A stretch of 22,204 nt of DNA from a virus. This document shows positions 181 through 19,316 of this stretch, piece after piece (the stretch's first letter is position 1; every line of letters begins with the position of its first letter). The translations under genes and the position numbers were made by a program. The stretch is from positions 1-22,204 of the IMG/VR virus record IMGVR_UViG_3300013131_000273, one strand, 5' to 3'. A model generated the notes under the pieces. It did not search any database. It had not been told where the DNA came from and saw only the letters and a list, made by a program, of their open reading frames with translations.

Positions 181-186
181 ATGAGT

Positions 187-1365
187 ATGGACCAGCCCGA
201 TCCTCGCGCTGAACTACGAACGAAAGACGGGCTGGAGTGGTGGGAGTGGAAGCGCGAGGACGGTGTTCGCCAGATCCACCTCACGGGCAAGGGTTGCCTC
301 TCTGATTCCGAAACCGACGCGCTCGCCGGGGAGTTCCTCACGGAATCCCACTACTCGGTCCTACTGAGAGACGAGGACGCCGACGTGTACCGACCGGAGT
401 CGGTTAGCGCGCTCGCTATGTTCGCCGGGGGCGAATCGGAACCCGTTGAGGAACGGCTACTCGTTTCGATCCGGCGGGGCGCGCTCCCGAAGTCGGTGAC
501 CCGTCCGGCCTGGGGGATTCTCCGCAAGGCGGCTCACGCCTCCAAGAATCGCGGCTTCGCGGCGGGGAAGGCGACCGCCGAAGGGCTGGGGAAAGACCCG
601 TCCCGGTTTATCTCGCGGGGCGGGGCGACGGCTCGGTACCTGACCCAAGACGGTATGCTCTCCGAGACTTCCGAGAGCAACATGGTTCTCTCGGGCATCG
701 TCGGTAACTTCAACTCGACCCCCCGGAACCCCTACTGCCGTCAGACGGCGTTTACTCGGGATAACTTCGACGAGTTCCTGACGGCGATGCCGCTCATCGA
801 GGAGGCGAACCTCGCTTTCAAGAAGCTCGTCCCGACCCGCTGGGAGAATCAGCGCCGCTTCGTTCAAGATACCGACCTCGCCAAGAAGGGGTGGACGCTC
901 GGCGATACGGTGTTCTCCACGATCACGGTCAACAAGAACTACCAGACCGGCGTCCACAAGGACGCCGGGGATCTCCTACGGGGATTCGGCAATCTGATGG
1001 TGCTGGAAGGTCCGACCCACGCTTACCGGGGCGGTCATACCGTCTTCCCGAAGTTCCGGGTCGCCGTCGATCTCCGGGAGGGGGATTTCCTGGGGATGGA
1101 CGTTCATGAGTGGCACGGTAACACGGCGCTCTCCTCCGCCGTCGAGGGGGAGGACGATTGGGAGCGGATCAGCGTCGTCTGCTACGTCCGGGTAGACATG
1201 ACGAAGTGCGGCACCCAGGAAGAAGAGTCCCAGAAGCACGAAACCTGGCAACAGCGCTGGCGCAATCCCCTAGAGCAGCACGCCTTCCGCCTAGAGGAGG
1301 ATCGCGTCTATCAGGAGGGGCTCGCCTACGCTTCTAGCGTACTGTTCAATACCGAGGAAACGTGA
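187..1365 (+). CDS. TET/JBP-family 2-oxoglutarate/Fe(II) DNA base dioxygenase
   Basis: This 392-residue protein is predicted to hydroxylate the 5-methyl group of a pyrimidine in DNA (thymine, or 5-methylcytosine if a C5-methyltransferase exists elsewhere), giving a 5-hydroxymethyl base. The double-stranded beta-helix motifs are visible: the HxD metal pair in GVHKDAGD (H257, D259), a GGHTVFP strand, the distal metal ligand in HEWHGNT (H310), and an Arg for 2-oxoglutarate in ERISVV (R327). The stretches FSTITVN, DAGDLLRGFG and RISVVCYVR match the TET/JBP subfamily rather than AlkB or prolyl hydroxylases. The N-terminal 130 residues are less conserved. The ATG at 187 is chosen because GGAGGT sits 6 bases upstream. 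It is the first gene of an operon whose next members act on hydroxymethylated bases, and its stop overlaps the kinase start by 4 bases. The family call is firm; the substrate base is not determined. Confidence 0.88.
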   Translation: MDQPDPRAELRTKDGLEWWEWKREDGVRQIHLTGKGCLSDSETDALAGEFLTESHYSVLLRDEDADVYRPESVSALAMFAGGESEPVEERLLVSIRRGALPKSVTRPAWGILRKAAHASKNRGFAAGKATAEGLGKDPSRFISRGGATARYLTQDGMLSETSESNMVLSGIVGNFNSTPRNPYCRQTAFTRDNFDEFLTAMPLIEEANLAFKKLVPTRWENQRRFVQDTDLAKKGWTLGDTVFSTITVNKNYQTGVHKDAGDLLRGFGNLMVLEGPTHAYRGGHTVFPKFRVAVDLREGDFLGMDVHEWHGNTALSSAVEGEDDWERISVVCYVRVDMTKCGTQEEESQKHETWQQRWRNPLEQHAFRLEEDRVYQEGLAYASSVLFNTEET

Positions 1366-1949
1366 ACGACCGTTCATCCGAGAAGAAGGTACTCTGGGTC
1401 CTGGGGGAGCCGGGGGTCGGTAAGACGACGCTCGTTCGCGAGCTAACGAGGGGGCTCGACCTCTCGTTCGTTGAGAATCCGAAGTGGACCCTAGCCGAAG
1501 GAATCGCTCTCGCCGGTCACTACAAGGGCGGTACGTTCGACGGTGCGGATACTGTCCCGTACAACGGCGTCGAGGCGGCGCTCCAGTACTGGGAGGGGAA
1601 CCTGCGCGATAGGTACCCGTTGACCCTGCTCGACGGGGATCGATTCTCGCACGATGGCGCTCGGCAGTTCTTCTCCGAGAGGGCGGCGACCTACGCGGTA
1701 CTGCTAACGGCCCCAGAGGAGCTAGTCGCCGCTCGTCGGAAGGAGCGGGGGTCGAACCAGTCCGCTACTTGGATCGCGGGACGCAAGACGAAGTCCGCCC
1801 GATTCTTTGAGGGCTTCGCTGATTCCCGGTCCCTAAAAATCGACGGTTCCCTGGCCTCCAGCGAAATCGCGGATCGGGTACGGGACCTACTTCAGAACGG
1901 GTCGGGCGTCAGCGAGTCGGACAACCCGCTCGCGTGGTTTGGGTCATGA
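1362..1949 (+). CDS. P-loop kinase of the 5-hydroxymethylpyrimidine DNA kinase type
   Basis: This 195-residue protein starts at GTG within a GTGA overlap with the dioxygenase. It has a Walker A loop (GEPGVGKTT, residues 15-23), a Walker-B-like Asp in TLLDGDRF, and a basic lid region with SNQSATWIAGRKTKSARF. These are features of the kinases that phosphorylate 5-hydroxymethyl-dU in phage DNA (HMUDK, studied in Salmonella phage ViI and Pseudomonas phage M6). The inferred role is to activate the hydroxymethyl group made by the dioxygenase as a phosphate or pyrophosphate leaving group. The helical domain found in some HMUDK proteins is absent here; a helical protein is encoded next instead. The kinase fold is certain from the P-loop. 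The DNA substrate is inferred from the lid motif and the neighbours. Confidence 0.75.
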   Translation: MNDRSSEKKVLWVLGEPGVGKTTLVRELTRGLDLSFVENPKWTLAEGIALAGHYKGGTFDGADTVPYNGVEAALQYWEGNLRDRYPLTLLDGDRFSHDGARQFFSERAATYAVLLTAPEELVAARRKERGSNQSATWIAGRKTKSARFFEGFADSRSLKIDGSLASSEIADRVRDLLQNGSGVSESDNPLAWFGS

Positions 1950-2878
1950 GCGACGTTCTGTCTCTGTTCGACGTTTCTCCGCCGAAGTTAGACGACCGCC
2001 CTTACCAGGAGCGGCCCCTGTTCGATTCGTTCGTCGCCTTCTCCAAGGCGCAACTCCACAGCGGGGACATCGACCCCGCCTACCCCGTTCTGAAAGAGAT
2101 TTACCGGAGGAGGGGGTACTCTCCAGACCAGGCGCTCTGGCACACGCTGCTCTACGTCACCTGGTACAACCTCGGGTCCGCTGAGCGGGCTTTCAGTCAG
2201 TATCCCGACCCGTCGAAGAGCCTCGACGAACCGCTCGTTCTACCTACCGGCACGGAACGTCGCTCGTTTCGGGGGAACGACCTAGCCCGATCCCATCTAA
2301 ACTCGCTGCTAGACTTGTCGAAGCCGCACGGGTCTCTGCTCGCCTGGTTGAGAAAAGCGAGCGAGAAGACCGGGGAAGAAGGCTGGGACGGGGTGCGAGA
2401 GGAGTTCCAGCGCGTCAAGTACGCCGGTCCCTGGAGCAGCTACAAGCTGGCGGACCTACTCGCCCACGTTCACGATTTTCCGATTACGGCTTCAGACCTG
2501 GGCATCGGCGGAGCGAGCGAGACGGCGGGTCCGATTCCGGGCATGGTAATTCTCACCGGATACGACTGGAAGAAATGCGCGACCGACCTCTCGGTCCAGC
2601 GAGAGCTTCTCGCTCATAGCCGGTCGAGGGGGGTACCGTTCTCGGGTCTCGACCAGCTGGAGACTTGCCTCTGCGACTTCAACTCGCTCTCCAAAGGGCG
2701 GTACTATGTCGGTCACGACATCGACCAGCAGATGGAGCACCTCAAGAGCGCCTCTGAGGACTTCTGGGAGGCTAGGACCGTCTCTTTCCCCTCTCGATAC
2801 TTAGGAGAGCGTAACGGATGGGTCGGAGTCCGTAAGCATCTCAAGAGCGTTTTTTTCTTGACCGGAGAGATACGATGA
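1946..2878 (+). CDS. Amino acid:DNA transferase-like protein (aGPT-PPlase2 type)
   Basis: This 310-residue, mostly helical protein starts at the ATG in an ATGA overlap with the kinase, which is preferred over an upstream GTG at 1934. The segment LDQLETCLCDFNS...KGRYYVGHDIDQQ (about residues 237-262) has the conserved Cys/Asn and GHDID residues I associate with the family first called alpha-glutamyl/putrescinyl thymine pyrophosphorylases. That family was later shown to transfer glycine or serine onto phosphorylated hydroxymethyl-dU in DNA. The proposed role is to displace the phosphate with an amino acid or amine. Its position directly behind the kinase fits. I cannot tell which amino acid is used, and it could instead be a detached helical domain working with the kinase, since the two helical families are related. 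Confidence 0.65.
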   Translation: MSDVLSLFDVSPPKLDDRPYQERPLFDSFVAFSKAQLHSGDIDPAYPVLKEIYRRRGYSPDQALWHTLLYVTWYNLGSAERAFSQYPDPSKSLDEPLVLPTGTERRSFRGNDLARSHLNSLLDLSKPHGSLLAWLRKASEKTGEEGWDGVREEFQRVKYAGPWSSYKLADLLAHVHDFPITASDLGIGGASETAGPIPGMVILTGYDWKKCATDLSVQRELLAHSRSRGVPFSGLDQLETCLCDFNSLSKGRYYVGHDIDQQMEHLKSASEDFWEARTVSFPSRYLGERNGWVGVRKHLKSVFFLTGEIR

Positions 2879-3717
2879 CCGATCTGTTCGGAGTGAAACA
2901 GGAGCCTCTCCTGGCGGACGCTACCCCGATTGAGATGGTGACGGATCGAATCTCAGTGAAGAGGGAGGACTTGTGCTCCCCCCATCCAGGCCCTTCCTTC
3001 AGCAAGATCCGGGGCGTGCTGAAGCACATTGAAAAGCGAGCCGAGAGCGAGATCGGGGTCCTCGATACCTACCACTCTAAAGCTGGTTGGGCGGTATCCT
3101 ACGTCTCCCACCACCTGGGCAAGAAGGCGCTCGATTTCTACCCTCGGTACAAAGACGACGGACCGGAGCTTCGCCTTCAGCAGAAGATGGCCGCGCAGTA
3201 CGGCGCGGAACTGTTTGAACTTACGGCGGGTAGGAGCGCAATTCTCTACCATCGCGCCCGTAAAGAGTGTAATAGCCGAGGGGCCTATCTTATGCCTAAC
3301 GCCCTGAAGCTACCGGAGACGGTGGAGGAGTGCGCCGAGGAAGTCCTACGCACTCCCGACCTTCACAGGTACGCAAACCTGGTGATCAGCGTATCGTCTG
3401 GAACGATAGCGTCGGGTGTCCTTCGCGGGTTCGCGAAAGCAAAAATCTATCCGAATGTCTGGCTCCACGCGGGTTACTCCCGCTCTGAGTCCGAGCTTCG
3501 TCGATATATCGCAACGAAAGTACCGAAGCTGACCTTCTGGCCCTCTGACGTGAATCTCGTCGATGAAAAGTATGGGTACAAGGACGCCGCGAAGGTCGAG
3601 GACCCGCCTCCCTTTCCCTGCAACCCCTACTACGATCTGAAGGCGTGGAAGTGGCTCGGGTCTAAAGGTGTGGGGGCGATGAAGGGTAGCGTCCTCTTCT
3701 GGAACATAGGAGCATGA
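2875..3717 (+). CDS. Fold-type II PLP-dependent enzyme (cysteine synthase/ACC deaminase-like)
   Basis: This 280-residue protein starts in an ATGA overlap. KREDL followed by PSFSKIRG is the usual beginning of a tryptophan-synthase-beta/ACC-deaminase-like domain, and K44 is the candidate Schiff-base lysine. A segment resembling the substrate loop (YHSKAGWAVSYVSHHLGKK) and a Ser/Gly-rich phosphate-binding turn (SVSSGTIASGVLRGF) follow in the expected order. At 280 residues it is shorter than typical members. Related PLP enzymes occur in phage thymine hypermodification clusters, where they act on the amino acid already attached to the base, for example by decarboxylation. That reaction is inferred from context here. 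Free amino acid metabolism is the alternative, but the tight operon placement argues against it. Confidence 0.7.
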   Translation: MTDLFGVKQEPLLADATPIEMVTDRISVKREDLCSPHPGPSFSKIRGVLKHIEKRAESEIGVLDTYHSKAGWAVSYVSHHLGKKALDFYPRYKDDGPELRLQQKMAAQYGAELFELTAGRSAILYHRARKECNSRGAYLMPNALKLPETVEECAEEVLRTPDLHRYANLVISVSSGTIASGVLRGFAKAKIYPNVWLHAGYSRSESELRRYIATKVPKLTFWPSDVNLVDEKYGYKDAAKVEDPPPFPCNPYYDLKAWKWLGSKGVGAMKGSVLFWNIGA

Positions 3718-3718
3718 C

Positions 3719-4468
3719 ATGGGGATTGTGAATTACGAAGGTAAGTTGACCTACTACGTCATGGGGAAGTACCCCCTTTCGATCCACGAAGAGGACCTGG
3801 ATACGGCTTCGACAGGGGCTGGATCCCGAGGGTACTTCTATTACCTCCAGAAGAAGCCTCTAGACCTGGACAAGAACAATCGGTGCTTCAACCAGATGCT
3901 GGACGTGGCGGTCGCGTCCGGTCTTCCGAACCATCTCCGGGTCGTTGAGTTCTTCGGGGGCATCGGTTCGTCCGCGACCATCATCCAGGAGCGACTTCGC
4001 CCTCAAGAACACCTTATCTGGGACCTCGATCCGTTCTGCGCTCGGCATCTGAAGCGGGCGTTTGAAAATCGAAGCGGAGTGACCGTGACGGAGGGGGACG
4101 CTTACGCCCAGGCTCCTCTTGCGGTCACTCCGGACACTCTCCTCGTCGCCGATTTCAACACGTTCTCCATCCTGTACTTGACGAAGGAGAGACCGGAGGC
4201 GAAGGCGCTTGGAGCGTCCCTCGCGGCGCGTCCGAGGTGGGCGGTTCTCACCGACTCAGCCGTCAATAAGTTTCATCTCAATCGCGTTCCGTATGAGAGA
4301 GTGTTCGGGCGCGAGATCCGGTCTATGGAGGAGTACGGGGCGGCTCTCAGCGAATACCTCTCTCAGAGGTGGGGATACCGGATCGTTAGTTCTGCCGGGC
4401 ATCGAAACGCGACCTACTACTTGGTCGAGGCCGGGAAGTCGGTTCCTTTCCAGACCTTGAAGCTGTAA
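3719..4468 (+). CDS. SAM-dependent methyltransferase-like protein of unknown target
   Basis: This 249-residue protein starts at ATG 3719, with AGGAG 6 bases upstream. RVVEFFGGIGSSATII (from about residue 74) looks like motif I of a Rossmann-fold methyltransferase. It is followed by LIWDLDPFCARHLK, where the acidic residue would bind the SAM ribose, and by LLVADFNTFS (D145), which occupies the motif IV position. It lacks the Pro-Cys and ENV motifs of C5-cytosine methyltransferases, and DFNTF is not the DPPY/NPPY of N-methyltransferases, so it may methylate the new side chain or have lost methyl transfer. About 70 N-terminal residues are unassigned. It sits between the PLP and radical SAM genes in the same operon, so a tailoring step is the likely role. 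Confidence 0.55.
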   Translation: MGIVNYEGKLTYYVMGKYPLSIHEEDLDTASTGAGSRGYFYYLQKKPLDLDKNNRCFNQMLDVAVASGLPNHLRVVEFFGGIGSSATIIQERLRPQEHLIWDLDPFCARHLKRAFENRSGVTVTEGDAYAQAPLAVTPDTLLVADFNTFSILYLTKERPEAKALGASLAARPRWAVLTDSAVNKFHLNRVPYERVFGREIRSMEEYGAALSEYLSQRWGYRIVSSAGHRNATYYLVEAGKSVPFQTLKL

Positions 4469-4481
4469 CAGAAGGATTTAC

Positions 4482-6887
4482 ATGGATCTCGATGCATGGC
4501 TCGCGGACGACCTGGCTTCGGAAGAAACCCGAGAGGCGTACCAATACTTCATGAAGCCGGAGCCCCGCGACATCGTCGGGGACCTAGAAACGGACCCCGA
4601 GACGGGAATCCGCTCTCGGCTCATGAAGATCGGAATGGTGCGGGGGACAAAGGACGACGACAAGAAGACCGTCCGCGTCTACCTCGATCCGCTCCCTCAT
4701 ATCCGTCTTGACGAGGGGAAGCCGCTCCAGGGCTGGTACAAGTCGAAGCACGAGGAACCGGGGGTTCGTAACCGACCCTGCTTTACGGACGCGGTGCTCA
4801 CCCAGCCCTATGGAGGCTTCTGCTCGGTGGGTTGCGCGTTCGCGGTATACTCTGGGGAATGGATCGATACGCCATCCGGACCGAAGCTAGTAGACGCGAT
4901 CCGCATCGGGGACATCGTGTGGGGTCGAGCGCCCGAGGGAATCGTTCCGACTCGGGTCTCCGACAAGATCAAGAAATGGTCTCCCGACGGGATTCAGATC
5001 ACCCTTTCAAACGGACAGCGAGTTCGATTGAATGGGGAGCATCCGATCTGGGCTCCTCAAAAGGGAGGTTGGATCGAAGCCCGCGACCTTCGTCCTGGGG
5101 ACGAAGTGGAGAGCTTCTCCGATGACCTCATCCTGCGAGAAGTGCGGGAAGCCTACGGGTACAAGCGCGGGGAGGTTTTGCTCGGGTTGCAGGAAGATCC
5201 GATGGAGAGAATCCTTCAAAGAGCACCCGCATCCACGGAAGAAACCGCCTCGCGCCTGCGAACGATGTTCGGGTCTGACTCCGAATCGAAGTCGGAAGTT
5301 TTGCAAGGCTTGTTCTCCGATCGCGCGATCCGAGAGGATGCGAGGCAACGCGCGGGGCGAGAAGGAACAGAAGTTCTGCTCGTGCGGGGCACCTATCTTG
5401 CGTCGGAGGAAGATCTGCGAGATGTGTCTCGTCGAACACCGTCGAACAGCTCCTCGGGGCAATACGAACGGGCGTTCCTTGAAGGGGCAGAAGAAGTCCG
5501 CCGAATGGATGCGCAAGTTCTGGGTTCGTTTCCATTCCGAGCGGATGAAATGGCCTACGAAGGGGCTGCGTTCTCCCTACGAACGGAAGGACGGAACGCT
5601 CGTTTCTCTTCGTTCCAGCTGGGAGTGGAGGGTGGCTACCTTTCTCGACGCTATGACCGCTCGGAAGCTCCTCACGTCGTCGATGTCCGACCGATACCGG
5701 CAGGCTATGTCTACGATCTCGAAACGGCTACCGAGAACTACTACCTGAAGGGTTCGGAGAATCCGCGCTCTCCGGCTCTTCTCGTACACAACTGTTACGT
5801 CAACAGCGGCTTCAAGGGCTATCGGGGGTCAGGTCTGATCTCAGTCCCGATGAACTACGGCGCGCAGGTCCGTAACAGCCTCAAGAAGATGAAGACCTCG
5901 GCAGCGGGGTACTTCAGCTCCTTCACCGACCCCTTCCTCCCTCTGGAGGACGTGTACCACAACACCCAGGAAGGCGCTCAGGCGTTCGTCGATGAGAAGC
6001 TGCCCGTCTTCTTTCTCTCGCGGCTCAAGTACCCGTCCTGGGCTTACGACATCCTGCGGAAGAACCCCTACAGCTACGCACAGAAGAGTATCAACTGCGC
6101 GAACCCCGAGGACTGGAAGCGACTCTCTCCGGGAGCGGCTTCGCTTGCCGTTCACATGGAAGACATCCGCGAGCTGCGTAAAGCCGGTATTTACGTCAGT
6201 ATCCAGGTGAACCCCATCGTTCCCGGCGTCGTCAATCACGACGACGTGGAGCGGATCTTTGAGATGCTCGCAGAAGCCGGGGCGAATCACGTCATCGTCA
6301 AGTTCGTTGAGGCGGGGTACTCGTGGGCACCGGCGATGGCGGACAGAATCAAGTTCCGCTTCGGCGAGGAGAGGGGTCGGAAGTTTGAGAGCCTCTTCAC
6401 CGAGAACATCGGGGGTCAGCGGACCATCGTAGAGGACTACCGTCTAGAGGGGCACCGCCGCTACCAGAAGGCGGCTACCCGTCTGGGGATGACCTACGCG
6501 ACCTGCTACGAGTACCGGATGGAGCGGGATGCGACGGGTCGAGTGACTAACAAGACGGGGGTTTCCGTAGGCAAGGAGTTCCTGACGGCGGATCAGTGCC
6601 ACGGTCATCGCGTTCCGATGTTCACCCGGAACCACATCAACGAGCCTTTCCAAGAAGTCCAGGAGTGCCCCCCCACGGGTTGCCTGTCCTGCGCGGACGA
6701 CAACGGAGGTAAGTCTCGTTGCGGGTCAGACCTATTCGGCTCGGCCCCTGCTCTTCGGCTTCCTGACTTGAAGGTCGGCGTCTACGAAGAGGTACCCGAA
6801 AAACGTAAAAAGTCTCTGCCCGTGGTCGGCAACTCTGGCCCTTCGCTTCCGAAGTCGATGTCGGAGTTGTTCGATTTCGACGAGTAG
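4482..6887 (+). CDS. Radical SAM enzyme precursor interrupted by an intein
   Basis: The 801-residue precursor should splice to a 484-residue enzyme. C114 and C118 lie before the intein and C438 immediately after it; once joined they read CSVGCAFC, the CX3CX2C motif that binds the [4Fe-4S] cluster. The C-extein continues with features like the SPL/COG1533 radical SAM group (SSFTDPFLPLE, and INPIVPGVV-like strands written here as VNPIVPGVVNHDD). Near the end is a second Cys set, C729, C734, C737 and C747 in precursor numbering (CX4CX2CX9C), which may hold an auxiliary cluster or zinc. Radical SAM isomerases in phage M6-type clusters rearrange a glycyl-thymidine side chain, and a similar carbon-skeleton step is the working guess here. 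AAGGA lies 5 bases before the ATG. It is the last gene of the operon, followed by a 29-base gap. The radical SAM class is firm; the reaction is inferred. Confidence 0.85.
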   Translation: MDLDAWLADDLASEETREAYQYFMKPEPRDIVGDLETDPETGIRSRLMKIGMVRGTKDDDKKTVRVYLDPLPHIRLDEGKPLQGWYKSKHEEPGVRNRPCFTDAVLTQPYGGFCSVGCAFAVYSGEWIDTPSGPKLVDAIRIGDIVWGRAPEGIVPTRVSDKIKKWSPDGIQITLSNGQRVRLNGEHPIWAPQKGGWIEARDLRPGDEVESFSDDLILREVREAYGYKRGEVLLGLQEDPMERILQRAPASTEETASRLRTMFGSDSESKSEVLQGLFSDRAIREDARQRAGREGTEVLLVRGTYLASEEDLRDVSRRTPSNSSSGQYERAFLEGAEEVRRMDAQVLGSFPFRADEMAYEGAAFSLRTEGRNARFSSFQLGVEGGYLSRRYDRSEAPHVVDVRPIPAGYVYDLETATENYYLKGSENPRSPALLVHNCYVNSGFKGYRGSGLISVPMNYGAQVRNSLKKMKTSAAGYFSSFTDPFLPLEDVYHNTQEGAQAFVDEKLPVFFLSRLKYPSWAYDILRKNPYSYAQKSINCANPEDWKRLSPGAASLAVHMEDIRELRKAGIYVSIQVNPIVPGVVNHDDVERIFEMLAEAGANHVIVKFVEAGYSWAPAMADRIKFRFGEERGRKFESLFTENIGGQRTIVEDYRLEGHRRYQKAATRLGMTYATCYEYRMERDATGRVTNKTGVSVGKEFLTADQCHGHRVPMFTRNHINEPFQEVQECPPTGCLSCADDNGGKSRCGSDLFGSAPALRLPDLKVGVYEEVPEKRKKSLPVVGNSGPSLPKSMSELFDFDE
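4842..5792 (+). mobile_element. Intein with Ala at position 1, inside the radical SAM cluster motif
   Basis: The intein spans 317 residues (precursor 121-437). It starts AVYSGEWIDTPSG and ends LLVHN, with Cys+1 as the first C-extein residue. Block A-like (VYSGEWI, then LVDAIRIGDIVWG), block B (NGEHPIW, His187), block F (YVYDLETATENYYL, Asp412) and block G (H436-N437) are all present. Residue 1 is Ala, so the usual acyl shift at Cys1/Ser1 cannot occur. This matches class 2 (KlbA-type) inteins, in which Cys+1 attacks the upstream bond directly. Block F has Asp rather than the Cys of class 3. The borders are fixed because only this split restores CX3CX2C. About 190 residues between blocks B and F do not resemble an endonuclease in this frame, but another frame does. 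Codons such as cga, ttg and aat are commoner here than in flanking genes. Confidence 0.9.
5122..5748 (+). CDS. Out-of-frame homing endonuclease-like ORF nested in the intein, probably truncated
   Basis: This frame, shifted relative to the intein, encodes 208 residues from the ATG at 5122, with GGAG 10 bases upstream. It stays open further upstream to an ATG at 5032, but recognisable protein begins at MTSSCEKCGKP. Three zinc-knuckle units follow: C5/C8 with C20/C23, C46/C49 with C61/C64, and C86/C88 with C99/C102. Then comes GTLVSLRSSWEWRVATFLDA (E168), which resembles the opening of PD-(D/E)XK/EDxHD-type phage homing endonucleases. The expected later catalytic part (a PDF-like strand and the following acidic or basic residues) is missing, because intein blocks F and G occupy that DNA in the other frame. 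Either this is a decayed endonuclease overprinted by the intein frame, or two compensating frameshifts separate it from an in-frame fusion. The in-frame intein translation over the same DNA contains no Cys. Confidence 0.6.
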   Translation: MTSSCEKCGKPTGTSAGRFCSGCRKIRWRESFKEHPHPRKKPPRACERCSGLTPNRSRKFCKACSPIARSERMRGNARGEKEQKFCSCGAPILRRRKICEMCLVEHRRTAPRGNTNGRSLKGQKKSAEWMRKFWVRFHSERMKWPTKGLRSPYERKDGTLVSLRSSWEWRVATFLDAMTARKLLTSSMSDRYRQAMSTISKRLPRTTT

Positions 6888-10975: not shown

Positions 10976-11598
10976 ACGGCGAAGTCGAGATTATCTGTAT
11001 CGGCGACAGCGCTGTGATTCCTGACCTGGGGCTGACCCTGTCTCGGGGTTCGCGGACGAACCTGAGCGCGTCGAACGCTTCCCGGTCGAAAGACCTGACT
11101 ATCGCTAGGGCGAAGGGGCTCGTCGCGGTACGAGAAGTCCGGGTCGCCATTCTCCGGCAATCCCCCCAGGAGTCTATGACGAAACCCCCGGACGAAGACC
11201 TGCTGAAGAAGCTGAACCGTCTGAACCGGCCTAATCCCGCTCCCCCTGCTTCGGAGAGCCCGGAGCTAGTCGCGGCGTTGCGAGACCTGACGCGAGAAAT
11301 CGCAGCTCTCCGCGCTGAGATGCAACAGAAGCCCGCCGTCTCGACGGATACCTCCGCTATCGCGGAAGCTGTGAGGTCGGCTCTCTCGGGCCTGTCTTTC
11401 GTAGCGCCGACCGCCTCGGGTAACGGTGCGACGATTTATTCAGGTTCTCCAGACGAGGAGCGATTCATTCCGTCGGGTATCGTACCAACGAACCTCAAGG
11501 CGGACATCTCCCCCAACACGACGAACGAGGGCGCGGGGTCACTAGAGGACGCCCAAGCTGCTCTTCGGGAGGCAAGGCGACGTGCCCGCGAAACCTAA
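10972..11598 (+). CDS. Coiled-coil structural-block protein
   Basis: The GTG at 10972 overlaps the previous stop. The 208-residue product has a compact beta N-terminus (VEIICIGDSAVIPDLGLTLS, with SRSKDLTIARAKGLVAV), a Pro-rich linker, a helical coiled-coil segment (VAALRDLTREIAALRAEMQQ) and a disordered tail containing ERFIPSGIV. I do not recognise a named family. The layout (small folded head, linker, helix, peptide motif) suggests an adaptor in the virion or its assembly. Its end overlaps the upstream GTG of the actin-like gene by 17 bases. Confidence 0.55.
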   Translation: MNGEVEIICIGDSAVIPDLGLTLSRGSRTNLSASNASRSKDLTIARAKGLVAVREVRVAILRQSPQESMTKPPDEDLLKKLNRLNRPNPAPPASESPELVAALRDLTREIAALRAEMQQKPAVSTDTSAIAEAVRSALSGLSFVAPTASGNGATIYSGSPDEERFIPSGIVPTNLKADISPNTTNEGAGSLEDAQAALREARRRARET

Positions 11599-12616
11599 GA
11601 AGTCACAGGAAGACATGGCAAAGCACCTCGGAGTCGGCCTCGACGTAGGCACCATGAACTTGGTCTCGGCCCGTAAGACCGACAAGGGCATCGAGACGCG
11701 CCGGATGCGCGATGCCTTCCTCGACCTCCCGCCGGAGTCGAAAAAGATGCTCAAGCTCTCAGGCGTGAGCTATGTGGACCGGGGCGACGAGATCCTCATC
11801 CTCGGAGACGCCGCGCTCGACACCGCCAACATCTTCGGACGCGAGGCTCGCCGTCCGCTCTCGGGCGGGCTCGTTTCCTCGACGGAGACGGACTCCCTAG
11901 AGGTGCTCGGGCTCCTCGTGCGGAACGTGCTCGGGGAACCCTCGGAGGAGGGAGAGCATTGCTACTTCTCGGTGCCCGCTGCCCCCATCGACATCCCCGG
12001 TCGGGATGTCGTGTACCACCGGGGCATCTTTGAGCGCATCGTCTCGGAGTGCGGCTACACGCCCACGGCGGGCAACGAGGCGATGGCGATCATCTACGCG
12101 GAGACGGCGAAGGAGGGCTTCTCGGGCATCTCGATCAGCTTCGGCTCCGGGATGAGCAACGTCGCGCTCGCCATGAACACCATCGAGGGTCTGACGTTCT
12201 CGGTGGGCCGGGGCGGGGATTGGATCGACTCGGGCGCGGCGAAGTCGATTGGCTCGACGCAGGCCCGCATTTGCGCCATCAAGGAGAAGGGCATCGACCT
12301 CAACAACCCGCAGGGCCGGGACCAAGAGGCGCTCGCCTTCTACTACAAGAACTTGATCGAGTACGTCATCGACCAGATCGCCCTCCAGTTCAAGAGCATC
12401 GAGGGGAAGTTCGCGCTTCCGAAGCCGATCCCGCTCATCATCTCGGGCGGTACGTCTAAGCCGACCGGCTTCGTTGAGTTCTTCACCAAGCTCTTCGACA
12501 AGAGGCGCAAGCGGTTCCCCATCGAGGTGAGCGAGATCCGCGCCGCCTCGGACCCGCTCAACGCCGTCGCGAACGGCCTCTTGGTGCAGGCTCTTCAGGA
12601 ATACGACAATGACTGA
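11582..12616 (+). CDS. Actin-fold (ParM/MreB/Hsp70 superfamily) ATPase-like protein
   Basis: This 344-residue protein shows the actin-superfamily nucleotide pocket. Phosphate 1 is VGLDVGTMNLVSA (D21, G23), phosphate 2 is GISISFGSGMSNVA (residues about 182-194), and the adenosine motif is LIISGGTSKP (G289-G290). The Asp normally found in phosphate 2 is Ser (S186), so ATP hydrolysis may be altered. In related bacterial proteins actin-like filaments position plasmids or phage DNA; which, if any, applies here is unknown. A GTG at 11582 has GGGAGG 9 bases upstream. An ATG at 11615 would remove 11 residues and avoid overlap with the previous gene, but its AGGA is too close. It lies unusually among neck and tail genes. 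Confidence 0.75.
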   Translation: MPAKPKKSQEDMAKHLGVGLDVGTMNLVSARKTDKGIETRRMRDAFLDLPPESKKMLKLSGVSYVDRGDEILILGDAALDTANIFGREARRPLSGGLVSSTETDSLEVLGLLVRNVLGEPSEEGEHCYFSVPAAPIDIPGRDVVYHRGIFERIVSECGYTPTAGNEAMAIIYAETAKEGFSGISISFGSGMSNVALAMNTIEGLTFSVGRGGDWIDSGAAKSIGSTQARICAIKEKGIDLNNPQGRDQEALAFYYKNLIEYVIDQIALQFKSIEGKFALPKPIPLIISGGTSKPTGFVEFFTKLFDKRRKRFPIEVSEIRAASDPLNAVANGLLVQALQEYDND

Positions 12617-14360: not shown

Positions 14361-17300
14361 ATGCCCAGTCTTCTTCGCGGCGGCTACGCGCCCCCCGGTG
14401 TATACACCCAGACGTTCTTCGGTTCCGCTCCCGGTGCAGTCCCGGTTCCCAATCGGATTCCGGTGTTCGTCGGTACGGGCGTCGAGATCCTGAGCCGATT
14501 GAATCTGCCCGTGGTCCGGGGCTCGTCCTCGACCATCGACCAGCAGATTGTCGATGAGGACCAGTCCGGTCGCGCCGTCGTCAGCGTCTCGCCCAGCGGC
14601 GCGGTGACTCTCGGTTCGTTCAACGGGACCCTCCAGAAGTTCCAGGTTCGCAACTTCCCCATCGTCTCGGGCGACGGTACGGGCACCCCGGCGACGGACA
14701 CCTCCTCGGTGACCTGCCGCGTCAACGGCTTCCCGATTGTCGTTCTCGGCCTCGACGCCGCGAAGGGCATCGTCGAGATTTCGGTCGCCCCCCAGGCGGG
14801 CGATACGGTCGTTTGCACTTATTTCTTCGACCGCACCGACACGCTGATCACCGACACGGTTTCGGATCAGGTCACGGCAGAGTCGGCGATCATCGACGGG
14901 GCGCGGGGCCAGAACTTCTCCTTCGTCGCGGCGACGACGGACGTGTTCTCGGTGTCGGTGGACGGGCTTCCGTTCGTGAATATCACGATGCCCTCCTCGG
15001 CCCCCTCGGTATCGGCGGCGGTCGTCGCGGCAACGATCTCAGGCGCAACGGGCATCGGCTCGCTCGTCGCCTCGACGTTCGTGGACAATCTCGGCCAGAC
15101 CCGTATCCGCCTCACCGCCGACAAGTCCATCGTCATCGGCACGGGTACGGCGAACACGGCCCTCGGCTTCGTCCCGAATACGGCGACGAGCCGCAACCGT
15201 ATCTTCTACACGTTCAACGGCCCCATCGTTGACGGTGAGGGAGGCGGTCTGACGACGACGGATCCGGCGGACGTGACGGTTCTCGTCAACGGCCTCCAGG
15301 TCATCCCCTCGGCGGTAGACGGCTCGACGCGGGCGGTGACCCTGCCGTTCGCCCCGGCCCCCGGCAGCACCGTTACGATCCGCTACTACTTCAACACGTG
15401 GCAGGATACGTTCGACTACCTCGCCAACGTCGGCGTCACCGAGATCACCCGCGCAGCGGTCACCCCGGACTCCAACGGCGCGGGCGTCTTCATCCAGGGC
15501 GAGAGCTACGTCCTCAAGAACGACACGATTGTCTGGGGTACGGCGGCGCTCGTCTCCTCGGGCGTCCACACGGAAGGCGGAGTCACCTTCGGTACGTCGC
15601 AGGTCTCTGCGATGCTCGTGGACAACCGCGCGTACCTCGCGGAGTGCTCCGCGACGGTCAACTCCTCGGGTCCGGTCGCGGTCGCCTCGACGACGGTGTT
15701 CCAGCTTCCGTATCAGCCCACGACGGGCAACGGTCGCGGCAACCCGCTCTCGACCAGCCTCTACAACACGGTTGCGAACGGTCGGATGGATCTCCCGACG
15801 ACCCGCCCCGACCTCGTGATTGCGTACTGGGGCTTCGGCGTTCTCGACGCCCTGGAGCGCGGTCCGGTCACCGTCCTCAAGGTGGACCCGGATCTCTCGC
15901 AGGTCACCCTCGCGACCCCGGTGCCGGAAGGCGCTTCGGTCTACGCGACCTTCTACTACAACATCCTCGTAGACGCCGCGTTCATCGGCTCCTCTACCGG
16001 ATACACGCTCACCTCGGCGGTCGCGGGAGCGGGCGGCATCGGCACCTACACGATCTCTGGCCCCTCGGGCGCGAACCTCTACGGGGCGAGCCTTACCGGG
16101 AAGGGTTCCGACCTCACGACGGTCCAGATCGTCTTCCCCTCGGGTTCGGAGTTCACCCCGGATTCGCGCCTTGAGGGCGGCGTTCCGGTCGAAGAGGTCG
16201 TCACCGTCGAGTTCGCCTCCTCAGACGAGACGCCCGCTCGGTTCACGGCTCCCGGCCCCGGTCCCTACTATCCCGTAGAGAACATCTCGGATCGGTTCCG
16301 TATCACCTTCAGCGGTTCCGACCAACAGACCGGCCTCGCGGCGGGTATCGACCTCTCCTCTCCGACGTTCGGCTCTCGCGGCGGCGCGTTCGCCTCCTAC
16401 GTCGGCGCGGAGGTCGAGTACACGGCGGCTTCCGGCCAGACGACCTACGACCTGACGGCGGGTGTCGATGACGAGATCAACCTCGTCCTCGACGGCGTGT
16501 CGATCTCGGCCTCGACCGGCACGGTAGCCGGTGCAGACGCGACGACGTTTGAGGCGGCGCTCAACTCGGCGGCGGTCGCGGTCGGTAACGAGCCCTACTA
16601 CGTCTCGGCGGGCGCGTTCCCCTCAGGCTTTGAGGTAATCGTCAACGAGTACGACCAGATTCGCCTCCACTACACGGGCGACGTTTCGGGTCCGTCGGGC
16701 GCGGTCACCTTCACGCTCCCGGTCGCGGTCTACGCGAGCGCGGGCGCTCTCGCGACGGCTATCGACGCGCTCGGCCTGACCCCCGGCGGTAGCACGGTCA
16801 ACTGCTCGGCGACGGCGGACGGGAACCTCCGGTTCACGCTCACCTCTCTCGCGGTCGGCGACGCGGCGGGTTACATCGAGTTCATCACGAACGCGACCCC
16901 TGCTCGGGACTTCACGATCCTCGCGGGTTTGAGCGCGGGAGCGGCGACGAACGACGACCAGGCCAAGCTCTACAACGGTCCCGTCGCTCGCGTTGTCGGT
17001 ACGACGACTACGGCGGGTCGCCGTCCGTATGACCGGATTGTCCTGCGCAACCGTATCTTCCCCGGCGCGGGCGTCTACACGTCGTTCCACTCCTCAGTCG
17101 CCCAGACCCTCCTCCAGCTCCAGGGCGGTTCGGGTCAGTCGAAGGCGGGCCTCCTCATCGGGAATACCGGCGAGGCGACCTACGGCGCGAACGTCAAAGG
17201 CGCGTCGGTCCTGGCGCTCACGGGCTGGTCGGAAGGTCAGTACCCGACGGGTACTCCGGGCCTCAGCGGTCAGCCCCTCGTCACGTTCTACGACGGGACG

Positions 17301-19316
17301 GGCACGGTCCCCGCGAACAACTACTTCGTCTTTGAGGCGAATAGCGTCCTGGTCCCCGTGACGTTCACGGCGTCTGGTGCGGGTACGGCGACGGCCCTCG
17401 GTCCGGCGTCGAATCCGGCCTCGGTCATCGGCCAGATCATTGCAGCGGTCGGCGCGACGACGGCGAACGTCTCCGTGTACCAGGAAGGCGCGGGCGTCCG
17501 GCTCGTCTGCGACGACCTCACCCCCTCGGCGACGCTTACGGTCGGCGCGGGTTCGGCCAACGGGATCCTCGGGTTCTCGGAGGGCGATACCTCGGTGCCG
17601 TCGGGCGTGACCGCGAAGCAGCTCGCCTCGGCCCTCATGAACCACGCCGCAGCGAACGGCAACTTCGCTAGCGTGACCATGAACGGGTATCAGAGCCCCA
17701 ACGTGGCCTACTTCGCGGGTCGGGCGCTCGCCTCGGTCGAACTCGATTCGACGGGGAACGAGTACCTGTACCTGGAGTGCGGGACGCAGGGCGTGACGGC
17801 TTACGGTGTCGCGTCGAGCATCCTCTTCAAGACGCCGGTCGCCGACGACGTACTCGTGACGGGTACGCTCCTCCTAATCAAGGCGGGCGACGGGTCGAGC
17901 GGCGAAGCGGCCATCAACGGCTTCTTCGTCATCTCGACGGATCCGGCGAACGGCTCCGGCTCCGCGAACACCTCGGTCCTCAACTCCGGCGTCGGCCAGG
18001 ACGGCTTCGTCGGCCAGACCTACCGCGACGAGGTAACGGGCTTGACCTTCACGGTCCTCCCGCGTGCGGGTGCGATCCCCTACCCGACGGGGCCGAATGC
18101 GACGCTTACCTTCCGGGTAAGCAAGACGTTCACCACCGACGGGAACATCCCCACCCTCGCCATCCCCGGCGTCGAGCTTACCGTGACCAACACGGCGGGC
18201 GTCGTCTCGGGCGACTCGGCCCTCGTTGAGACTTTCAAGAAGACCGGCGACGAGCCGGACATCGGCGAGGTCTACTACGTCAGCTACCGCTACCAGAAGC
18301 AGGACTTCACCCCCCGCCTCTTCTCGCGGCTCTCGGACGTAACGGCGGAGTACGGCCTCGTTAGCCCGGACAACCCGCTCTCCCTCGCGGCCTATTTCGC
18401 GTTCCTCAACGGCGCGAGCGTCATCGGCACCTACCAGGTGCTCAAGCAGTCGGGATCCTCGCAGGCCAGCGAGCAGGCGTACCTCGACGCCCTCGTCGCG
18501 CTAGAGGGGGCGAGCCTCCCCGGTAATCTCAACCCGACGGTGCTCTGTCTCCTGACCCCAGCGACGCAGAACCTCGCCAAGGCGACGGCGATTCACTGCG
18601 ACATCCAGTCCTCGATCCGCTACCGCGCCGAGCGCACGGCGATCTTCGGATTCGCCTCGGGCACCCAGCCCCTTGCGGCGGGCGCTATCGCTACGGCGAC
18701 GGGTTCGACTCGCGTTCGGTTCGTCTACCCGGACATCGCGACGATCACGCTCACCGACTTCCTCAACCAACAGCGCGATTACCTCGTAGACGGTCGGTAC
18801 CTCGCCGCAGCGGTCACGGCGGCGACGACCTCGATGTCGGTGGATCCGGCGACCCCGTGGACGGGGCGGCTCCTGTCGGGCTTCACCGCCCTCCAGCGCC
18901 GCCTCGACGCGGTACAGGCGAACCAGGTCGCGTCTCGCGGCGTGACCGTCATCGAGGACCGGCTTCCGTTCCTCCGAGTCCGTCACGGCCTCACGTCGGA
19001 CATGACGAACGTCCTGACGAAGACCCCGACGGTGATCCAGATCGCCGACGAGATGCAGCGTCGGTGCCGACTGGTGCTTGACCCGTACATCGGTATCAAG
19101 TTCCTCCCCCAGGTCATCGGCCAGATCGAGGGCCAGCTCTCGGAGATGTTCAAGCGGTCAATCGCCGAGCAGCTGATCACCTCGTTCACCGGGATCAACG
19201 TCGCGGTCGATCCCGAAGACCCGACGGCAATCCTCGTCGAAGCCTACTACGTCCCGGTTTTCCCGCTGCTCTACATCCAGATCACCCTCCGGGTGTCGGC
19301 GCAGTCCCAGGTCTGA
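14361..19316 (+). CDS. Giant contractile tail sheath protein
   Basis: This 1651-residue protein begins like tail sheaths (GGYAPPGVYTQTFF). From about residue 1303 it carries a typical sheath core (FTPRLFSRLSDVTAEYG, LAAYFAFLNGA), ending with LTSDMTNVL, PYIGIKFLPQVIGQIEGQLSEMF and a beta C-terminal arm (LYIQITLRV). The sheath forms the contracting outer tube of the tail. Typical sheaths have roughly 400-700 residues; about 1000 extra residues are inserted here. Three related beta units start near residues 117, 305 and 486, with the shared pattern V-(V/L)NG...V(T/E)(L/I)...P..G..V...Y(F/Y)(F/Y). Other segments (about 185-275, 684-850, 988-1075) resemble the Ser/Thr/Gly-rich beta units of flagellin-like insertions. 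These may decorate the tail surface. Two hairpins precede the gene and one follows it, and codon bias is strong, as expected for a highly expressed protein. Confidence 0.85.
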   Translation: MPSLLRGGYAPPGVYTQTFFGSAPGAVPVPNRIPVFVGTGVEILSRLNLPVVRGSSSTIDQQIVDEDQSGRAVVSVSPSGAVTLGSFNGTLQKFQVRNFPIVSGDGTGTPATDTSSVTCRVNGFPIVVLGLDAAKGIVEISVAPQAGDTVVCTYFFDRTDTLITDTVSDQVTAESAIIDGARGQNFSFVAATTDVFSVSVDGLPFVNITMPSSAPSVSAAVVAATISGATGIGSLVASTFVDNLGQTRIRLTADKSIVIGTGTANTALGFVPNTATSRNRIFYTFNGPIVDGEGGGLTTTDPADVTVLVNGLQVIPSAVDGSTRAVTLPFAPAPGSTVTIRYYFNTWQDTFDYLANVGVTEITRAAVTPDSNGAGVFIQGESYVLKNDTIVWGTAALVSSGVHTEGGVTFGTSQVSAMLVDNRAYLAECSATVNSSGPVAVASTTVFQLPYQPTTGNGRGNPLSTSLYNTVANGRMDLPTTRPDLVIAYWGFGVLDALERGPVTVLKVDPDLSQVTLATPVPEGASVYATFYYNILVDAAFIGSSTGYTLTSAVAGAGGIGTYTISGPSGANLYGASLTGKGSDLTTVQIVFPSGSEFTPDSRLEGGVPVEEVVTVEFASSDETPARFTAPGPGPYYPVENISDRFRITFSGSDQQTGLAAGIDLSSPTFGSRGGAFASYVGAEVEYTAASGQTTYDLTAGVDDEINLVLDGVSISASTGTVAGADATTFEAALNSAAVAVGNEPYYVSAGAFPSGFEVIVNEYDQIRLHYTGDVSGPSGAVTFTLPVAVYASAGALATAIDALGLTPGGSTVNCSATADGNLRFTLTSLAVGDAAGYIEFITNATPARDFTILAGLSAGAATNDDQAKLYNGPVARVVGTTTTAGRRPYDRIVLRNRIFPGAGVYTSFHSSVAQTLLQLQGGSGQSKAGLLIGNTGEATYGANVKGASVLALTGWSEGQYPTGTPGLSGQPLVTFYDGTGTVPANNYFVFEANSVLVPVTFTASGAGTATALGPASNPASVIGQIIAAVGATTANVSVYQEGAGVRLVCDDLTPSATLTVGAGSANGILGFSEGDTSVPSGVTAKQLASALMNHAAANGNFASVTMNGYQSPNVAYFAGRALASVELDSTGNEYLYLECGTQGVTAYGVASSILFKTPVADDVLVTGTLLLIKAGDGSSGEAAINGFFVISTDPANGSGSANTSVLNSGVGQDGFVGQTYRDEVTGLTFTVLPRAGAIPYPTGPNATLTFRVSKTFTTDGNIPTLAIPGVELTVTNTAGVVSGDSALVETFKKTGDEPDIGEVYYVSYRYQKQDFTPRLFSRLSDVTAEYGLVSPDNPLSLAAYFAFLNGASVIGTYQVLKQSGSSQASEQAYLDALVALEGASLPGNLNPTVLCLLTPATQNLAKATAIHCDIQSSIRYRAERTAIFGFASGTQPLAAGAIATATGSTRVRFVYPDIATITLTDFLNQQRDYLVDGRYLAAAVTAATTSMSVDPATPWTGRLLSGFTALQRRLDAVQANQVASRGVTVIEDRLPFLRVRHGLTSDMTNVLTKTPTVIQIADEMQRRCRLVLDPYIGIKFLPQVIGQIEGQLSEMFKRSIAEQLITSFTGINVAVDPEDPTAILVEAYYVPVFPLLYIQITLRVSAQSQV

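Follow-up and report, generated by a model that had tools for sequence, protein, structure and literature searches.

The question raised by this locus is which base its TET/JBP dioxygenase oxidises. The window, which is an entire IMG/VR record of 22,204 bases, is a linear fragment of the genome of a bacterial virus, and at its left end the TET gene heads an operon on the + strand whose genes overlap or nearly abut, in the order TET, kinase, ADDT, PLP, orf5 and radical SAM (Table 1). A first-pass annotation had regarded the substrate as ambiguous between thymine and 5-methylcytosine (5mC). The ambiguity is real, as Asp264 of the enzyme matches a 5mC-binding residue; however, the matter is less open than that annotation suggested, as both the relatives and the M6-like genes favour thymine. 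We propose, with a probability of roughly three in four, that the window TET oxidises thymine in DNA to 5-hydroxymethyluracil.

Table 1. Left-end features of the window and the basis of each assignment
Feature	Coordinates	Strand	Basis
TET/JBP dioxygenase	181..1365, start 187 preferred	+	PF12851, AF2 model, Foldseek
P-loop kinase, probable hydroxymethyl-base DNA kinase	1362..1949	+	Ploopntkinase3-like
Amino acid:DNA transferase (ADDT, aGPT-Pplase2)	1934..2878	+	PF18724, E 1.6e-13; ADDT tree
PLP enzyme	2875..3717	+	phrog_7093, E 9.7e-85; ~53% identity to M6 gp052
orf5, class I SAM-binding transferase-like protein	3719..4468	+	Predicted fold, PDB fold matches
Radical SAM protein, intein-interrupted	4482..6887	+	phrog_9252, E 1.4e-203; M6 gp053 family
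Intein coding region, 317 aa	4842..5792	+	Ala first, Asn last, Cys+1

The TET open reading frame (394 aa from position 181) probably starts at ATG187, which is the better start codon because its spacing to the ribosome-binding site, 7 nt past GGAGG (175-179), fits better. The protein matched PF12851 (Tet_JBP) with E 7.7e-18 and 64.7 bits, against a curated cut-off of 34.9, and retains the iron ligands H259, D261 and H312 and the 2-oxoglutarate residue R329. Its AF2 model had a pLDDT of 91.9, and the 26 best PDB matches of this model in Foldseek were CMD1, TET2, NgTet1 and CcTet. A search of PDB sequences with the single TET as query returned no match, and a PDB search with the TET profile A1 led to TET2 and NgTet1. 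Judged from sequence and model, the gene is apparently real and intact, and the earlier identification of a TET/JBP dioxygenase at 187-1365 was borne out by the PF12851 score and the conserved catalytic residues. In L001:9983-12154, a single ORF of 723 aa carries TET fused to a kinase. A gene with a ParB-like nuclease domain was observed before or close upstream of TET in L003:6973-7602, L013:1-750, L014:1-804 and L015:1-810, in phages from different TET clades. Rfam had no match in the window.

The genes that follow TET had been described as resembling enzymes acting on hydroxymethyl-uracil, and this description agreed with the family matches of the kinase, ADDT, PLP enzyme and radical SAM protein. 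DNA of Pseudomonas phage M6 carries a hypermodified thymidine, 5-(2-aminoethyl)deoxyuridine, according to the accessible text of PMC6449724. The M6 5-NedU cluster (gp051-gp058, NC_007809) comprises ADDT, PLP, radical SAM, a kinase, HMUDK_hel and a dUMP-hydroxymethylase homologue (DUHMT). The ADDT, PLP and radical SAM genes of M6-type thymidine hypermodification are all present in the window, in the same order as in M6. The window PLP enzyme showed 52.8% identity to M6 gp052, with 69 records matched, and the radical SAM protein of L002, an intein-free orthologue that is a close relative of the window's, showed 62.4% identity to M6 gp053 by tblastn, with 75 phage records matched. The radical SAM and PLP enzymes were reportedly assigned by Lee et al. 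in 2022 as the isomerase and decarboxylase of the M6 path. The two clusters differ in their front ends: M6 has DUHMT, a HMUDK_HMUD1 kinase and HMUDK_hel and no TET, whereas the window has TET and a kinase matching Ploopntkinase3, not the M6 family, and no M6-type kinase with its helical partner HMUDK_hel was found in the window. The window ADDT also falls in a TET-type clade, unlike the M6 system. Among the matches listed, the HMUDK_hel model hit 0 of 246 TET loci vs 44 of 45 DUHMT loci, which may be because TET itself chooses the sites. The M6 gp055 family was considered as a thymine restorer and was dropped, its Pfam name being HMUDK_hel. The kinase was likewise rejected as a marker of uracil on its own; it is not diagnostic because the same family sits near methyltransferase-linked TETs (24/72 loci among the matches listed).

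Within the radical SAM gene, the intein interrupts the CX3CX2C motif immediately ahead of its third cysteine, and the +1 nucleophile of the intein is therefore a cluster ligand. Another frame inside the intein region holds a 238-aa ORF (5032-5748) with repeated CxxC zinc-ribbon-like motifs, which gave weak Pfam zinc-ribbon matches and no phage matches, and which is possibly an overlapping homing endonuclease gene. The remaining gene of the operon, orf5, has a predicted class I methyltransferase-like fold with TYW2 as its best PDB match. The motif of C5-methyltransferases is Pro-Cys-Gln; orf5 has Asp-Phe-Asn in its place, and no DNA C5-methyltransferase was among its 50 listed PDB fold matches, so that orf5 was rejected as a hidden C5-methyltransferase. 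It recurs in PLP/radical SAM clusters, namely L121, L124 and L155, where these two genes flank it, and L012, L111 and L144; L081 and L082 have it near a TET. It is probably a pathway enzyme.

Phage TET systems of the cytosine type have a C5-methyltransferase gene close by, and the first-pass observation that none is visible in the window was correct for PF00145 (0/1). Since the window is a linear fragment, this shows little about the virus on its own. Relatives were collected from viral contigs with four queries beyond the first, and home-made HMMs were run over the ORFs of 316 sequences, or 315 once L098, which duplicates the L002 locus, was dropped. The locus sets are samples because two of the relative scans took the best 80 of 584 and the best 80 of 257 matches, and many loci in the screen are short, the Melnitz set likewise. 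Among the matches listed, C5-methyltransferase was found in 0 of 84 loci of the window's TET clade, in 0/4 of the DLP6/Cr30/C48C1/S-CBWM1 group, in 67/72 of the Melnitz clade, no more than 3.5 kb from TET in every case, and in 3/86 of the actinophage clade, always farther away than that. In a TET tree of 64 representatives, thinned at 70% identity with named isolates and window relatives always kept, methyltransferase accompanied 7 of 8 members of the Melnitz clade vs 0 of 25 on the window side (Fisher p 1.9e-6). PF00145 was also missing from the whole records of all six isolates with kindred TETs (HTVC112P, DLP6, Cr30, P12024L, S-CBWM1 and C48C1), from eight further isolates and from 26 further viral whole records, of which the radical SAM set contributed six; one of ten whole records searched contained it, that of Melnitz, in the other clade. 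Conversely, ADDT, PLP and radical SAM occurred in 0/71 methyltransferase-linked loci among the matches listed. The methyltransferase-linked phage TETs are said to act on cytosine, as in the work of Burke et al. of 2021. In P12024L and S-CBWM1, a TET-associated glycosyltransferase (PF20691) adjoins TET (L006:12853-13611, L007:5207-6061); with no PF00145 in either whole record, these two phages may carry a glycosylated thymine similar to base J.

In the screen, TET and DUHMT did not occur together. Across the 315 sequences, among the matches listed, TET was present in 246 loci (247 before L098 was dropped), DUHMT in 45 and both in none, and the 54 loci with TET and ADDT contained neither C5-methyltransferase nor DUHMT. 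At the position where thymidylate synthase reads uracil and where T4 dCMP hydroxymethylase has Asp, the DUHMTs have Asn in 41 of 41 cases. No dUMP hydroxymethylase (PF00303 homologue) was found in the window in this locus screen. The PF00303 search was sensitive enough for the divergent enzymes of M6, Pam3 and Bhz59, which matched at 66-72 bits in phages with no TET match. Cr30 was the only one of ten records searched to match PF00303; it has TET as well, and its protein, which matched almost the entire profile with 372.9 bits, is likely an ordinary thymidylate synthase.

The large relatives allowed these comparisons to be made on longer records. The search of the rest of the genome that the first-pass annotation had suggested, for a C5-methyltransferase or a hydroxymethyl-dUMP synthase, was transferred to the relatives' whole records of up to 266 kb, where neither was found: the 265,895-base record of L002 has TET, with PF00303 and PF00145 not found within it. 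The 288,255-base record of L100 has PF00303, with TET and PF00145 not found within it. L099 has ADDT and radical SAM, and neither TET nor PF00303 was found in its record. L099 and L001 come from the same metagenome, their tetranucleotide profiles correlate at 0.978 (21 kb of each), and they may be one virus, so that L099 is a weaker counter-example, though still a standing one. In L099:8880-9866, ADDT is split into two neighbouring ORFs by a frameshift or an assembly fault. At 14361-19316, the window encodes a 1651-aa sheath-like structural protein (the name is a guess) with no PHROG match. The first 480 residues of this protein were 74% identical in L099's 248-kb record, 65% in that of L002 and 54% in that of L100; the 98-kb record of L001 lacked them. 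In the accessible portion of its text, a survey covering 224 jumbo phages mentions no TET/JBP among its findings (PMC7824862).

Phylogenetic analyses of the downstream enzymes indicated that the front ends have been exchanged. In the radical SAM tree (71 of 73 matches, with L098 and one short row left out), the three TET rows need two label changes, which are forced by starred branches, and a single TET clade was rejected by the AU test (p 2.5e-5). The window and L002 stand beside the DUHMT cluster L100, and L074, a second radical SAM-containing TET cluster that lies on a 9.9-kb contig and has a long branch, groups with the DUHMT clusters L155 and L164. The PLP tree (49 rows) also required two changes, with L100 adjacent to the window and L164 adjacent to L074. 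In the ADDT tree, thinned from 114 rows to 64, the DUHMT clusters L100 and L164 lie inside the TET-type ADDT clade, and three changes are forced. The trees count changes between TET and DUHMT, with gain and loss treated alike. TET and DUHMT thus replace each other before the same downstream enzymes, and the gene set, its order and its relationship to M6 are likewise evident; the label changes on three trees indicate that either front end can supply downstream enzymes of a single lineage. We consider it rather probable that, at least twice and in jumbo-sized phages as well, a thymine-hydroxylating phage TET displaced, or was displaced by, a dUMP hydroxymethylase as the first enzyme of an aminoethyl-uracil pathway, so that the dioxygenase chooses the modified sites in place of the kinase with its helical partner.

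The base pocket points in the other direction. Positions were mapped with the alignment from the PDB search by profile A1, with phage position 264 corresponding to NgTet1 Asp234 and TET2 Asn1387, and position 337 to TET2 His1904. In solved complexes, TET2 Asn1387 and NgTet1 Asp234 bind N4 of 5mC (PMC11040006), and CMD1 Asp350 and Arg418 bind its N4 and O2 (PMC7854593). In the accessible text of the latter, Asp350 is described as unfavourable for O4 of thymine, and no reaction with thymine was found, the D350N variant included. Asp264 and Arg337 of the window TET match CMD1 Asp350 and Arg418, so that the pocket looks CMD1-like and, by sequence and model, would favour cytosine. Among the matches listed, position 264 is Asp in 84/84 members of the window's clade and 69/72 of the Melnitz clade (3 gaps), and Asn in 86/86 of the actinophage clade; position 337 is Arg in 84/84, Asp in 65/72 and Leu in 82/86, respectively. 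This difference at position 337 suggests specialised pockets in the clades. The actinophage clade is nearly methyltransferase-free too, yet its pocket differs.

The pocket is the main argument for a reading that we consider unlikely, in which TET acts on 5mC that comes from the host or from a methyltransferase that escaped recognition, and the downstream enzymes, which would have acquired or always had tolerance for cytosine, yield an aminoethyl-cytosine-like base. That the methyltransferase-linked clade has Asp264 as well, and that related kinases occur near its TETs, agrees with this reading. However, it would require two independent base switches, and the screens above gave neither a C5-methyltransferase in the window's clade and the 26 further records nor ADDT, PLP and radical SAM beside the methyltransferase-linked TETs. 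In our judgement, the repeated exchange with DUHMT weighs more than the pocket evidence from Asp264, and thymine is favoured because the records of the large relatives lack C5-methyltransferase and dUMP hydroxymethylase and the downstream enzymes are common to M6-type pathways. The observations that count against thymine oxidation include the invariant Asp264, the presence of TET and PF00303 in Cr30, the lack of either in L099, the short contig of L074 and the fragmentary state of the window.

Two further explanations appear improbable. TET might oxygenate 5-methylpyrimidines with scant regard for the base, its biological substrate being set by the DNA on offer and mostly thymine. NgTet1, which has the same Asp, reportedly showed weak or minor activity on thymine in the work of Pais et al. 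of 2015, and oxidation of thymine by TET in mouse cells is cited in PMC7854593; the clade-specific residue at position 337 speaks against such indifference, and we regard this explanation as quite improbable. The lowest probability is given to a dUMP hydroxymethylase outside the 22-kb window that makes 5-hydroxymethyl-dUMP, with TET doing otherwise, e.g. further oxidation. The window is a fragment and Cr30 holds both TET and a PF00303 protein, but DUHMT accompanied TET in none of the 246 loci among the matches listed, and a search that does detect the M6, Pam3 and Bhz59 enzymes found no PF00303 in the 266-kb record of L002.

Considering thymine as the preferred substrate, we propose the following scenario. 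Once the phage has replicated its DNA, TET would hydroxylate certain thymines of that DNA at their 5-methyl group, and the adjoining kinase would phosphorylate the resulting 5-hydroxymethyluracil. By analogy with M6 and from the Pfam family, ADDT may then swap the phosphate for an amino acid, which is probably glycine. As in M6, rearrangement and decarboxylation by the radical SAM and PLP enzymes may follow, and the final base, similar to 5-(2-aminoethyl)uracil, would block restriction. With TET as the front end, the choice of modified sites would rest on the dioxygenase. If this is true, two unrelated chemistries, oxidation of thymine in DNA and hydroxymethylation of dUMP, converge on one base that a shared set of decorating enzymes then receives, and the first step of base J has a phage counterpart. 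The proposed reaction is that of the kinetoplastid thymine hydroxylases JBP1 and JBP2, from thymine to 5-hydroxymethyluracil in DNA, to which the window TET is likened by reaction alone. A thymine dioxygenase would also be a potential tool with which modified thymines could be introduced into ordinary DNA. As the first step varies among related clusters, the base specificity of phage TETs can be tested directly.

Thymine hydroxylation feeding a kinase/transferase path had been called a new route in the first-pass annotation, and this holds in part: a cluster for thymidine hypermodification that contains a TET was already proposed by annotation in the actinophage Tonitrus (PMC11955845, in its accessible text). 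In the literature within reach, which leaves out most subscription journals, neither an assay of a thymine-oxidising phage TET nor the pairing of TET with M6-type PLP/radical SAM enzymes or a repeated exchange with DUHMT was found. The actinophages Tonitrus, Wooper and Reprobate have TET, ADDT (aGPT-Pplase2, ~36% identity) and a kinase, as in the window; PF00145 and PF00303 were not found in their clusters, and PF00303 was not found in the five TET actinophages searched. However, no PLP/radical SAM back end was seen in the actinophage clusters, and their TET is ~20% identical to the window's and belongs to another clade with Asn264 and Leu337. The Melnitz-type TETs share the TET/JBP dioxygenase and Asp264 with the window, but form a separate clade with the closely linked C5-methyltransferase and without ADDT, PLP or radical SAM. 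Beyond the operon, a volactin-family actin homologue (PF25216, E 1.1e-73) is encoded at 11582-12616 of the window, amid tail genes.
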